This document shows, in pieces, positions 34,371 through 38,841 of a DNA stretch of 64,000 nucleotides. The stretch's first letter is position 1. Every line of letters begins with the position of its first letter. The DNA is from Dyella sp. C11 (lineage in GTDB: Bacteria > Pseudomonadota > Gammaproteobacteria > Xanthomonadales > Rhodanobacteraceae), in assembly GCF_003121485.1 (NCBI RefSeq), contig NZ_QAVX01000001.1, positions 310,001-374,000 on the forward strand, read 5' to 3'. Below the pieces are notes generated by a model. It was not told the origin of the DNA, searched no databases, and worked only from the letters and a program-made list of their open reading frames with translations. A program made the translations under genes and the position numbers.

Positions 34371-35207
34371 ATGACCGACTCCGTTAGCGCCAAGCCCGAC
34401 GACAGCGCCCTGGTGCGCGTCCGTGGCCTGACCACGGTGCTCAATGGCAAGAAGGTCTTCGACGCACTGGATATCGATATCCCGCGCGGCAAGATCACCG
34501 CCATCATGGGCCCCAGCGGTACCGGCAAGACCACCCTGCTGAAACACATCACCGGCCAGATGCGCGGCGACGCGGGCGAGGTGTGGGTGGATGGCCATAA
34601 CGTGCCGAAACTGTCGCGCGAGAAGCTGTTCGAGTTGCGCGAACGCATTGGTTACCTGTTCCAGAATTCCGCGCTGCTCACTGACTACGACGTGTTCGAG
34701 AACGTGGCGTTTCCGCTGCGCCAGCACACCGATCTGCCGGAAGTGCTGATCCGTAACATCGTGCTCACCAAGCTGCAGGCCGTGGGCTTGCGCGGCGCGG
34801 CGGGTTTGATGCCGACGGAGCTGTCCGGCGGCATGGCGCGTCGCGTGGCGCTGGCGCGCGCCATCGTGTTCGACCCCATGCTGATCCTGTACGACGAGCC
34901 GTTCGTGGGTCTCGATCCCATCGCGCTCAATCAGGTCTTGAAGCTGATCCGTACGCTCAACGAGACGCTTGGCATCACCAGCGTGCTGGTGGCACACGAA
35001 CTGGAAGCGATCAAGCAGGTGGCCGATCACATCTATCTCATCGCCAACGGCAAGGTCGTGGCGCAGGGCGATCCGAAGACCATCGCCGACGACGGTTCGC
35101 CGTGGACGCGCCAGTTCTTCGGCGGCGATGCCGATGGTCCCGTGCCGTTCCAGTATCCGGCCGGCGATCTGGGTCAGGCGCTTGGTTTTCCAGGGAGTGG
35201 TGCATGA
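34371..35207 (+). CDS. mlaF: Phospholipid transport ATP-binding protein MlaF
   Basis: The ATPase of the Mla system that moves phospholipids between the outer and inner membranes. The 278 residues contain Walker A GPSGTGKTT (about 45-53), the Q-loop in YLFQNSALL, signature LSGGMARR, Walker B LILYDEPF and the switch His in VAHE. The C-terminal 40 residues include the tail typical of MlaF that wraps a partner subunit. It starts the mlaFEDCB unit, with a 4-bp overlap to mlaE. It follows a 138-bp gap after gmk, long enough for its own promoter. Confidence 0.95.
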   Translation: MTDSVSAKPDDSALVRVRGLTTVLNGKKVFDALDIDIPRGKITAIMGPSGTGKTTLLKHITGQMRGDAGEVWVDGHNVPKLSREKLFELRERIGYLFQNSALLTDYDVFENVAFPLRQHTDLPEVLIRNIVLTKLQAVGLRGAAGLMPTELSGGMARRVALARAIVFDPMLILYDEPFVGLDPIALNQVLKLIRTLNETLGITSVLVAHELEAIKQVADHIYLIANGKVVAQGDPKTIADDGSPWTRQFFGGDADGPVPFQYPAGDLGQALGFPGSGA

Positions 35208-35977
35208 GTGCGGCGATGAAGAACGACAACATCGTGGTGCGCTCGCTCGCACAGATCGGCGACTGCGCGCTGTTCCTGCTGCGCATGCTCGCCGCCGTGC
35301 CGCGCAGCATGCGCCACTGGCGCGAGACCGTGCGCCAGCTGTGGTTTGTCGGTGCGATGAGCCTGATCATCATCATGGTCTGCGGCCTGTTCGTCGGCAT
35401 GGTGCTGGGCCTGCAGCTGTATGACGTGCTGTCGATTTTCGGTGGCACGTCGGCCACGGGCACGGTGGTGGCCATCGCCATCTATCGCGAACTGGGTCCG
35501 GTGGTAACGGCGTTGCTCTTCGCTGGCCGCGCGGGCACGTCGGTCACGGCCGAGATCGGCCTGATGCGCGCCACCGACCAGATCGCCGCGATGGAGATGA
35601 TGGCGGTCGACCCGATTGCCTACGTGGCCGTGCCGCGCTTTCTTGCCGGCGTCATCGCCATGCCGCTGCTGGCCTGCGTGTTCTGCGCGCTGGGCATCTT
35701 CGGCGGTCACCTGGTCGGCGTGAGCTGGCTGGGCATCGACAACGGTACCTTCTGGTCGAACATGACCGCCACCGTCGAGGTGGTGAAGGATGTCATCAAC
35801 GGCGTGATCTGGAAGAGCGTCGTGTTCGGCATCGTCGTGTCGTTGATCGCCGTGTTCCAGGGCTACACCACGCCGCCTACCAGCGAAGGCGTCGCCTATG
35901 CGACGACACGCACCGTGGTCGCTTCATCCATCGCCATCCTGGCGCTGGACTTCGTGCTCACCGCCTTCCTGATGTGA
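35204..35977 (+). CDS. mlaE: Phospholipid ABC transporter permease MlaE
   Basis: An inner-membrane permease of 257 residues with five hydrophobic helices. Family features are VGAMSLIIIMVCGLFVGMVLGLQL, the ELGPVVTALLFAGRAGTSVTAEIGLM re-entrant region, and PRFLAGVIAMPLL. The ATG at 35204 overlaps the mlaF stop; the upstream extension of the frame is out-of-phase mlaF sequence. The protein forms a dimer at the centre of MlaF2E2B2 beneath the MlaD ring. Confidence 0.96.
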   Translation: MSAAMKNDNIVVRSLAQIGDCALFLLRMLAAVPRSMRHWRETVRQLWFVGAMSLIIIMVCGLFVGMVLGLQLYDVLSIFGGTSATGTVVAIAIYRELGPVVTALLFAGRAGTSVTAEIGLMRATDQIAAMEMMAVDPIAYVAVPRFLAGVIAMPLLACVFCALGIFGGHLVGVSWLGIDNGTFWSNMTATVEVVKDVINGVIWKSVVFGIVVSLIAVFQGYTTPPTSEGVAYATTRTVVASSIAILALDFVLTAFLM

Positions 35978-36023
35978 CCCGAGCCATGAATTTTTCCAAC
36001 CACTTTTCCATGAGGAACGTGCC

Positions 36024-36884
36024 GTGAGCCAGAGACAATCCTATGCCGTCGGCACCGGCCTGTTCATCGCGCTTGGCTTTGCCGCGCTCGGCTATCTCGC
36101 CACCCAGACCACGTCGGTGGCCAACTCCAGCCGCGGCCCCAGCTACACCGTCGAGGCGCACTTCGCCAACATCGGCCAGCTCAAGGAGCGTGCGCCGGTG
36201 AAGGTGGCGGGCGTGCGCATCGGCCAGGTGCAGTCGATCGTGCTCGATCCGGGCAAGGAAACGGCCGACGTGAAGCTGTCCATCGACAAGCGCTACGACC
36301 AGATTCCCGACAACTCGGTCGCCACCATCTTCACCAGCGGCCTGCTGGGCGACCAGTACGTGGGCCTGCAGTACGGCAACTCGAAGAAGAGCCTTGCCGA
36401 TGGCGGCACGCTGGCGCTTACGCGTCCGGCGCAGCAGCTGGAAGAAATGCTCGGCAAGTTCTTTGGTGCCGGCGGCGTGGCCGACAACCTTGGCGGCAGC
36501 TACAGCGTCAAGGGGCGCTTCACCAACGTGGGTTCGCTGTCCGTGGGCGCCCCGGTGAAGATGGCCGGCGTGGCCATCGGCACCGTGCAGTCGATCCAGG
36601 CGGACCCGGTGAAGCTGGATGCCGAGGTCACCCTTTCCATCGACAAGCGCTACGACCAGATCCCCGACGATTCGGCCGCCGCGGTGTTCACCAGTGGTTT
36701 GATCGGCACCCAGTACGTTGCCATCCAGCCCGGCGGTTCGCCGGACATGCTCAAGAACGGCGATGAGCTGGTGCTGACGCAGTCGGCGATGCAGATCGAA
36801 GATTTGATCGGCAAGTTCCTGGTCAGCGGCTCGCCCAGCGCCAAGCCGGCCGATGGCGGCAAGACCGACGGCGACAAGCATTGA
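36024..36884 (+). CDS. mlaD: MlaD-like phospholipid-binding protein with two tandem MCE domains
   Basis: A membrane-anchored periplasmic protein. After one N-terminal helix (about residues 8-26) come two MCE domains in tandem, roughly 41-118 and 160-237, each followed by the same kind of amphipathic helix (QQLEEMLGKFFG and MQIEDLIGKFLV). The repeat unit is exactly 119 residues; the peptide SIDKRYDQIPD occurs in both. Canonical MlaD has about 183 residues and a single MCE domain, so this 286-residue form is a duplicated version. A GTG at 36024 is the start. In the Mla complex MlaD forms a hexameric ring; two domains per chain could form stacked rings. Position and neighbours support mlaD. Confidence 0.92.
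   Translation: MSQRQSYAVGTGLFIALGFAALGYLATQTTSVANSSRGPSYTVEAHFANIGQLKERAPVKVAGVRIGQVQSIVLDPGKETADVKLSIDKRYDQIPDNSVATIFTSGLLGDQYVGLQYGNSKKSLADGGTLALTRPAQQLEEMLGKFFGAGGVADNLGGSYSVKGRFTNVGSLSVGAPVKMAGVAIGTVQSIQADPVKLDAEVTLSIDKRYDQIPDDSAAAVFTSGLIGTQYVAIQPGGSPDMLKNGDELVLTQSAMQIEDLIGKFLVSGSPSAKPADGGKTDGDKH
36279..36304 (+). repeat. Intragenic direct repeat, copy 1 (mlaD MCE 1)
   Basis: TCCATCGACAAGCGCTACGA plus CCAGAT is identical to 36636-36661, 357 bp (119 codons) later, marking the MCE domain duplication. Confidence 0.9.
36636..36661 (+). repeat. Intragenic direct repeat, copy 2 (mlaD MCE 2)
   Basis: Second copy of the 26-bp identical stretch, in the same reading frame. Confidence 0.9.
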
Positions 36885-36937: not shown

Positions 36938-37621
36938 ATGTTGCGCAGTCTGGCTCTTGCCACCGCCATCGCTTTCGGCAGCGTGATTGCCGCCCCCGTG
37001 CTTGCGCAGGACGCCGCCCAGGGCGCGGCCAGCCAGCAGACGCCGAACGAAGTCGTGCAGCACATCTCCGATGAGCTGGGCAAGGCGATCGAAGGCCACC
37101 AGCAGGAGCTGAAGAACAATCGCGAGAAGTTGATCGGCGTGATCGACGGCGTGTTCCTGCCTAATTTCGACATCGACTACGCCTCGATCCTGGTGCTCGG
37201 CCAGCACGCCCGTGAAGCCACGCCCGACCAGCGTTCGCGCTTCGCCAAGGCGTTCTACAACTCCATCACCCATCGTTACGCCGAAGGCCTGCTGGACTAC
37301 ACCCGTGGCCGCGTGAAGGTGTTGCCGTTCTCGGGCGACCTCAACGACAAGCGCACCATCGTGCGCAGCCAGGTGGTGCTGGACGATGGCAAGACCATCG
37401 CTGTCGACTACGCCTTCCGCAAGGACAAGAGCGGCACGTGGAAGGCCTACGACGTGATCATCGAGGGCATTTCCTACATCACCAACTATCGCAACCAGGT
37501 GGATGCCGAGATTCGCAAGGTGGGCATCGACAAGCTCACCAGCAACCTCGAAAACCAGGGTGATCAGGCGCTGAAGGAAATGGAGCAGGACACCAAGGGT
37601 CAGCCGGGCAGCAAGCAGTGA
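36938..37621 (+). CDS. mlaC: Periplasmic phospholipid-binding protein MlaC
   Basis: The soluble carrier that shuttles phospholipid between MlaA and MlaD. It has 227 residues with a signal peptide (MLRSLALATAIAFGSVIAAPVLAQ, cleavage after ALAQ-D). The ATG at 36938 is preceded by AGGAG at a 7-nt distance (36926-36930); an ATG at 36917 and a TTG at 36881 are alternatives. The Tol_Tol_Ttg2 domain includes FDIDYASILVLG, AFYNSITHRYAEGLLDY and a C-terminal SYITNYRNQVD stretch. Its stop overlaps the GTG start of mlaB. Confidence 0.94.
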   Translation: MLRSLALATAIAFGSVIAAPVLAQDAAQGAASQQTPNEVVQHISDELGKAIEGHQQELKNNREKLIGVIDGVFLPNFDIDYASILVLGQHAREATPDQRSRFAKAFYNSITHRYAEGLLDYTRGRVKVLPFSGDLNDKRTIVRSQVVLDDGKTIAVDYAFRKDKSGTWKAYDVIIEGISYITNYRNQVDAEIRKVGIDKLTSNLENQGDQALKEMEQDTKGQPGSKQ

Positions 37622-37923
37622 ACACGGCTTCCGCGCCCGTGCGCATCGACGACAGTGCCGCCGACGCCGTGCGCGTCAGCGGCGAGCTGACGTTCGGCAA
37701 CGCCGCCGCCGCGCTCGATGCGATCGGTGCGGCGGTGTCGCGCGATGGCCGCTCGGTGCTGGATCTGTCCGGCATCACCCGCAGCGACAGCGCCGGCCTG
37801 GCCTGCGTGCTGGCGGTGCTGGCGCAGTCGGCCGAGCGCGGTCGCAGGCTCAGCGTGCGCAACATGCCTGAGGGTATGCACCTGCTGGCCAGCGTGTGCG
37901 AGGTTGAAAGCCTGATGGCGTGA
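37618..37923 (+). CDS. mlaB: STAS-domain protein MlaB
   Basis: A 101-residue cytosolic STAS protein that binds MlaF and stabilises the transporter. The signature DLSGITRSDSAGLACVLAVL is the STAS core; the conserved Ser-Ala-Gly loop corresponds to the site that contacts the ATPase. GTG at 37618 overlaps the mlaC stop. It closes the mlaFEDCB operon and is followed by a terminator. Confidence 0.92.
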   Translation: MNTASAPVRIDDSAADAVRVSGELTFGNAAAALDAIGAAVSRDGRSVLDLSGITRSDSAGLACVLAVLAQSAERGRRLSVRNMPEGMHLLASVCEVESLMA

Positions 37924-37992: not shown

Positions 37993-38841
37993 TCAGTCTT
38001 TCTTCGGTTCCGGCTGGTCCTGCGTCGCCTGCGGCTTCTTGCTGTTTTCCCACTTCTGCTGCTCGTCGAGCAGTTCATCGGGATCGAAGCTCTTGTCGTG
38101 CAGACCCTGCAGCTGCTCGATGACCTCTTCCGGCGGATTGCCGTCGTAGATCTTGTAGATGCGCTGCTGGCGGTAAGCGTCGCGGATGAAGGCGTACGGA
38201 TCGTAGGCCGAATTGAGGAAGCTCTCCGCATCGATCGCGCTGGCGCGAATCGTCACCAGGTACATCAGCTCAGGCAGGTACTGCTGGCCGTATTCGTAGT
38301 GGTTGTTGCGCTCGAAGTAGCTGATGGGGTCGAAGAAGTAGCCATCGACCGGCACCTGCCAGAAATCGCGTCCGGTGGTCGGGCCGAAGAACGGCACCAT
38401 CAGGTACGGACCGTCCGGCACGCCCCAGCGGGCCAGGGTGACGCCGAAATCGGTGTCGTCCAGCGGAATACCCAGCTGGCTGGCCGGGTCGAAGAAGCCG
38501 CCAATACCCAGCGTCAGGTTGACCAGGAAGCGGCCGCTGCCCTGCAGCGCCTGCTTCGGGCGCGCCTGCAGCAGGTCGTTGGCCACCGTGATCGGCATGC
38601 GGATGTTGGTGAAGAAATCACTCATGCACCGACGGATGGTCGGGTTGGTCACCTTGCGGTAACCCACGGCGACGGGCCGGATGATCGCCTGGTCCAGCGA
38701 GTTGTTGAAGGCGTAGACCTTGCGGTTCATCTTCTCGTACGGGTCATCCGTACGCGGTTTGGCGATGGAACAGCCAGCAAGCAGCGTGATGGCCACCAGG
38801 GGCAGGCTGCGCATGACGAAAGAGCGAAAAGCGGACGGCAT
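37993..38841 (-). CDS. mlaA: Outer-membrane lipoprotein MlaA (VacJ)
   Basis: Removes phospholipids from the outer leaflet of the outer membrane together with a porin. The 282 residues begin with a lipoprotein signal (lipobox LAGC, Cys near residue 24). The core shows DPYEKMNRKVYAFNNSLD, LTLGIGGFFDPAS and GPYLMVPFFGPTTGRD, all family hallmarks, and ends in a charged tail of about 40 residues (QQKWENSKKPQ...). In E. coli mlaA is far from mlaFEDCB; here it is adjacent and convergent. Confidence 0.96.
   Translation of the reverse strand: MPSAFRSFVMRSLPLVAITLLAGCSIAKPRTDDPYEKMNRKVYAFNNSLDQAIIRPVAVGYRKVTNPTIRRCMSDFFTNIRMPITVANDLLQARPKQALQGSGRFLVNLTLGIGGFFDPASQLGIPLDDTDFGVTLARWGVPDGPYLMVPFFGPTTGRDFWQVPVDGYFFDPISYFERNNHYEYGQQYLPELMYLVTIRASAIDAESFLNSAYDPYAFIRDAYRQQRIYKIYDGNPPEEVIEQLQGLHDKSFDPDELLDEQQKWENSKKPQATQDQPEPKKD

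Follow-up and report, generated by a model that had tools for sequence, protein, structure and literature searches.

A MlaD with two MCE domains in the mla operon of Dyella and its relatives: putative stacked rings beside a retained MlaC

Could an Mla system that keeps its MlaC shuttle be built on a MlaD with two MCE domains instead of one? Under one published definition, a 'true Mla' has a single MCE domain (PMC7790496). Other multi-MCE proteins of Proteobacteria, found at low frequency, are mentioned in passing in the accessible text of Isom et al. (2017); they share with the present case a non-standard number of MCE domains, and that text does not describe any MlaD with two domains from an Mla operon (PMC5561183). 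The question is raised by a stretch of 64,000 nucleotides from Dyella sp. C11, called the window here, in which the mlaD gene encodes two MCE units in tandem. Here, we describe this gene and its operon, its distribution and duplication history, and the surfaces of the two domains, and we weigh how the domains are likely to be arranged.

The mlaD gene and its operon

The gene is an open reading frame on the forward strand (36024..36884) with a GTG start, encoding 286 aa. PF02470 (MCE) matches the protein twice, and a search of the own genome gives the two hits 80.1 and 75.8 bits; TIGR04430 (OM_asym_MlaD) gives 285 bits, above the cut-off of 135. The N-terminal transmembrane helix (aa 9-28; 36048..36107, forward strand) is hydrophobic and aligns to the transmembrane helix of E. 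coli MlaD; it is helical in both AlphaFold2 models, at low confidence. When the protein is compared with itself, the top offset is exactly 119 residues, with 66 identities (runner-up offset, 25), and aa 38-150 align with aa 157-269 without gaps at a local score of 317, while the maximum of 200 shuffles is 53. Self-alignment and the AlphaFold2 fold delimit MCE unit 1 (aa 38-150; 36135..36473, forward strand), which would be the inner-membrane-proximal domain with its helix, and MCE unit 2 (aa 157-269; 36492..36830, forward strand), the distal domain with its helix. The closest named relative is Dyella sp. ASV24, at 97% identity.

An earlier note, made from the letters of the window, had described a pair of MCE domains, both followed by a helix, as exact 119-residue units sharing an identical 26-bp stretch. 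The domains are borne out by the two PF02470 matches and the 119-aa register, and the 26-bp run was located at 36279..36304 and 36636..36661, both on the forward strand. The word 'exact' holds for the period and not for the sequence, since the protein identity of the two units is about 55-57%. The identity between domain 1 and domain 2 is equal within a genome (0.502) and between genomes (0.501), so the 26-bp run does not point to a recent copying event, and gene conversion between the halves of MlaD is ruled out. An assembly artefact or a recent local duplication is ruled out by the clade-wide presence of the double form. The same codon is used at 50 of the 65 domain-identical residues, a mild excess over the approximately 40 expected from local codon usage. 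An antisense ORF of 307 codons (35958-36881, reverse strand) covers nearly all of mlaD; it is most likely the shadow of a high G+C coding sequence.

The gene belongs to a complete mlaF-mlaE-mlaD-mlaC-mlaB operon, with mlaA convergent just downstream. The ATPase gene mlaF (34371..35207, forward strand) has MlaF (NF008809) as its top NCBIfam match, with 347.6 bits, which is under the cut-off of 441. It is followed by the permease gene mlaE (35204..35977, forward strand; PF02405, NF033619), then, after mlaD, by mlaC for the periplasmic lipid shuttle (36938..37621, forward strand; PF05494), the gene of a mlaB-like STAS protein (37618..37923, forward strand; PF13466 and a weak NF033618 match) and, on the reverse strand, mlaA for the outer-membrane lipoprotein (37993..38841; PF04333). 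Thus, mlaC is indeed still encoded beside the double-MCE mlaD, as had been noted, with mlaE, mlaF, mlaB and mlaA also adjacent. The EGIS docking loop of MlaC is conserved. In MlaE, D179, E192 and R95 correspond to D181, D194 and R97 of E. coli, and the acidic D179 and E192 are kept at the positions paired with MlaD arginines.

Distribution and duplication history

A MlaD-like match is present in 299 of 299 genomes of Xanthomonadales, and the best-scoring match mostly lies in short single-domain frames. Among the 233 genomes of Rhodanobacteraceae, 145 in 17 genera match over nearly the full two-domain length (in one of them the match is broken up over contigs). Another 86, from nine further genera, match only as single-domain pieces. 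Genera were tallied by hand, and for most of the 86 the single status was deduced from the score. The single loci of the family whose sequences were read, namely those in the domain tree, hold one domain each. The double form occurs in every genus (17/17) of one clade of the family, a group of soil bacteria including Dyella, Frateuria, Rhodanobacter, Luteibacter, Fulvimonas and Pinirhizobacter. The distribution across Xanthomonadales, which had been suggested as a check, is therefore that of one Rhodanobacteraceae clade and not of the order in general. An even draw of 370 genomes over the class gave one additional full-length double match, and all carriers in an even draw of 397 genomes over the phylum came from Rhodanobacteraceae. 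Such draws sample species; therefore, other rare double MlaDs can exist.

Of 97 double loci, 84 show the F-E-D-C-B-A' order; the other 13 are truncated where a contig ends, or their order is altered by the bounds of the open frames. The operon is the same in the sister genera that carry a single MlaD. In MlaE, one residue is inserted (NGVIWKS versus NGVWKS) in all 127 double loci checked. This insertion was ruled out as a change of partner peculiar to the double form, because it is shared by a genus with single-MCE MlaD (g7) and by six further single loci. In Dyella jiangningensis SBZ 3-12 (CP007444.1; L045, L105), the mla region occurs twice, once at about 16-24 kb and once at 5,068-5,076 kb, and both copies have the same match scores. 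These two copies at the ends of the record are likely an assembly duplication, since a genome with the same two-copy pattern (G338) was scored 9% contaminated.

In a tree for which 269 MCE domains were taken separately, the first domains of the clade are monophyletic (support 1.0), as are the second domains (0.94), and both groups nest among the single MlaDs of Rhodanobacteraceae. Because each domain is monophyletic and nested among the singles of its own family, one tandem duplication before the genera of the clade split is indicated. The domain tree is thus taken to show that the MCE-plus-helix unit was duplicated once in tandem, in an ancestor of the Dyella/Rhodanobacter/Luteibacter clade. 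Domain 1 diverged more on its stem, with a branch of 0.515 substitutions per site, 3.5 times the 0.147 of domain 2.

We also found the double form in an unrelated gammaproteobacterial family, to which the additional match of the class draw belongs and where three genomes of two genera carry a double MlaD (loci L192, in genome G684, L210 and L211) and nine carry a single one. Since this second lineage groups with the single MlaDs of its own family (support 0.99), it represents an independent duplication, and a transfer of the double MlaD from the Rhodanobacteraceae clade is unsupported. At locus L192, mlaF, mlaE and mlaC adjoin the double mlaD, and a STAS-like frame is adjacent. The earlier note had regarded a double-ring Mla with MlaC as a mechanistic novelty; a two-MCE MlaD in an operon that keeps mlaC is fixed throughout a clade and has arisen twice.

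Division of surfaces between the two domains

Relative to the single MlaDs of the family, domain 1 is the nearer in columns 1-35 (0.68 versus 0.57 for domain 2), whereas domain 2 is the nearer in the columns after 35 (0.72 versus 0.50 for domain 1). Only 0.24% of 20,000 column shuffles gave a split as strong (permutation p = 0.0024).

The first of these stretches includes the side that faces the inner membrane. In E. coli MlaD, Lys53 and Arg55 touch the headgroups of phospholipids above MlaE, whose D181 and D194 are the partners of Arg55 and Arg67 (PMC7784689). Domain 1 carries a basic patch, K54, R56 and R65 (36183..36218, forward strand), that includes the equivalents of E. coli K53/R55. The equivalent of R67 is unconserved in the family, and the third arginine lies three residues earlier on the same strand. 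The K/R/R patch is present in 94/94 domain 1 sequences and 0/90 domain 2 sequences, being replaced by Ser/Thr/Gln, Gly and Ala/Pro/Val in 90/90 second domains; the sequences of the clade are related, so counts of this kind are not independent events.

As for the other side, MlaC binding in E. coli involves the acidic β6-β7 loop of MlaD and the helix residues M141, Q149 and Y152 (PMC11289387). The loop and helix of domain 2 (aa 236-268; 36729..36827, forward strand) have the ancestral, acidic form and constitute a predicted MlaC dock, whereas those of domain 1 (aa 117-148; 36372..36467, forward strand) have diverged and the helix ends in FFG. The mean net charge of the loop is -2.1 in the family singles and -2.3 in domain 2, versus +1.1 in domain 1. 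The helix reads TQSSMQLEDLIGKFLV in the singles, TQSAMQLEDLIGKFLV in domain 2 and TRPAQQLEEMLGKFFG in domain 1.

Both domains keep the MCE core, and in both the pore loop is short, the long loop of the PqiB/LetB type being absent. The loop of domain 1 is TSGLLG (aa 104-109; 36333..36350, forward strand), equivalent to E. coli L106/L107 and invariant in 94/94 sequences; that of domain 2 is TSGLIG (aa 223-228; 36690..36707, forward strand), with Leu replaced by Ile at the position of E. coli L107. The hydrophobic pair is thus LL in 94/94 first domains and LI in 89/90 second domains.

Judging from conservation, domain 1 has kept the basic patch facing the inner membrane and has lost the loop and helix residues that bind MlaC in E. 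coli, while the reverse holds for domain 2. The patch for MlaE and headgroups and the loop and helix for MlaC are both present in MlaD, on different domains, with the binding itself predicted. The second lineage repeats most of this pattern: its loop charge is +1.0 in domain 1 and -3.0 in domain 2 (-2.5 in the singles of its family), the underside of domain 2 is without a basic residue, glycine ends the helix of domain 1 in the two sequences resolved there, and the Leu-to-Ile change in the pore loop of domain 2 occurs in 3/3. As two of the three distinct sequences are nearly identical, the repeat counts as one event, not three.

Arrangement of the domains and comparison with known systems

AlphaFold2 monomer models, built with 32 relatives (mean pLDDT 61.1) and 72 relatives (64.6), contain both MCE folds; the linker and the helices have pLDDT below 50, and these are models of the single domains rather than of their arrangement. 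Foldseek ranks the stacked tandem domains of LetB highest, with MlaD and PqiB next.

We consider that this is probably the MlaD of a working Mla system (MlaFEDB, MlaC and MlaA) in which six chains assemble into a stack of two hexameric rings, with ring 1 sitting on MlaE and ring 2 serving as the dock for MlaC. The two rings of the earlier note gain in this way a MlaE side and a MlaC side, divided between the domains; the stacking itself we infer from that division. In such an assembly, ring 1 would contact MlaE and lipid headgroups through its basic underside, and would take or give lipid there. Because the pore loop has the short form of MlaD in both domains, the connection between the rings would rest on helices and not on stacked pore loops: the six glycine-ended helices of domain 1, together with the altered loop, could form a collar linking ring 1 to ring 2. 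Lipid tails could pass from the Leu-Leu constriction of ring 1 through this collar to the Leu-Ile constriction of ring 2, so that the pore pairs of both rings would line one path of about two ring thicknesses. MlaC is predicted, on the basis of conservation, to dock and exchange lipid at ring 2, through the acidic β6-β7 loop and the ancestral helix. Two rings would be too short for a periplasm that takes the seven of LetB, which would fit with MlaC and MlaA having been kept. MlaC would still cross the remaining distance through the periplasm, and the system would be a shuttle with a taller porch on the inner membrane and not a LetB-like bridge.

Could the two domains be arranged or retained otherwise? 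Three two-domain chains could instead make one pseudo-hexameric ring with three MlaD transmembrane helices, just as one subunit of two domains can take the place of a pair of single-domain subunits. The number of domains and the symmetry permit it, both domains keep the MCE core, and the linker that follows the helix of domain 1, with about 10 residues, could perhaps reach from the top of a ring to its bottom. However, domains placed side by side would each face MlaE below and MlaC above, whereas in two independent lineages domain 2 is without the basic underside and domain 1 without the MlaC-facing top; moreover, the solved multi-MCE proteins PqiB and LetB stack their domains (PMC8420772). 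A single ring is therefore improbable in our view. It is still less probable that one domain is the working ring and the other an add-on that is flexible or has a regulatory role, such as a closed ring gating the access of MlaC. The low confidence of the linker in the AlphaFold2 models and the longer stem of domain 1 would agree with such a role, but both domains have kept the MCE fold as well as the hydrophobic pore pair, with near-perfect conservation.

Another explanation accepts the stacked rings and denies them any function beyond height, the duplication being kept by the mutual dependence of its halves. The partition of surfaces is the expected leftover of neutral subfunctionalisation, and the shared operon of the sister genera with single MlaD would be in keeping with it. 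Nevertheless, 17 genera retain the double form with no loss detected, and the independent second origin shows the same Leu-to-Ile substitution in the pore of domain 2. We regard a neutral history as unlikely.

Compared with known systems, two stacked rings would occupy an intermediate position. Like the MlaD of E. coli and P. aeruginosa (TIGR04430; PDB 6xbd, 7ch8, 8oj4), the Dyella protein has the transmembrane helix, the MCE core, the amphipathic helix, the short pore loop with two hydrophobic residues, and an operon with mlaF, mlaE, mlaC and mlaB. However, those proteins have one MCE domain and one ring, whereas the Dyella protein has two domains, between which the inner-membrane-facing and MlaC-facing surfaces appear to be split. 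PqiB (three MCE domains) and LetB/YebT (seven) also carry tandem MCE domains in each chain, and theirs are known to stack as hexameric rings; yet they have long pore-lining loops of 17-27 residues (PMC8420772), a PqiA or LetA partner and no MlaC, while Dyella MlaD has short loops, an ABC transporter and MlaC. Its membership in the PqiB/LetB group is ruled out by the two domains, the MlaE, MlaF and MlaC neighbours and a PqiB score (NF008070) of 26.7 bits against a cut-off of 525. The longer tunnel between MlaD and PqiB/YebT that had been imagined for this locus is an apt picture in part, given the short pore loops of MlaD type and the retention of mlaC with its docking loop. MpcD of Brucella and the long MlaD of Veillonella are also lengthened MlaDs with a Mla-type ABC transporter, but they are lengthened by helices or a C-terminal barrel bridging to the outer membrane, not by a second MCE domain (PMC12436622, PMC10665443).

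No description of a two-MCE MlaD was found in a search of open-access papers. Dyella MlaD departs from the definition of a 'true Mla' in the number of its MCE domains and agrees with it in the other features tested. The number of MCE domains in Mla systems is thus not fixed at one, and surveys requiring a single domain miss the double form. On balance, we favour the view that this is a natural two-ring Mla with a MlaC shuttle and at least two tandem origins, in which the proximal ring is a MlaE-facing collar and the distal ring a MlaC dock, and which is intermediate between a one-ring shuttle and the multi-ring tunnels. A clade-wide, operonic two-ring MlaD with divided surfaces would be a test object for how the tunnels of PqiB and LetB grew from single-ring proteins, and for how MlaD receives lipid from MlaC away from the ATPase. 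In it, the pump-facing ring would be apart from the shuttle-facing ring (one ring in E. coli), and each could be mutated alone.

As to other MCE proteins in the own genome, no seven-MCE LetB was found there; it encodes a further single-MCE protein in a 346-aa frame (C23:377547-377780, L003) and a three-MCE PqiB-like protein (C42, L004-L006).
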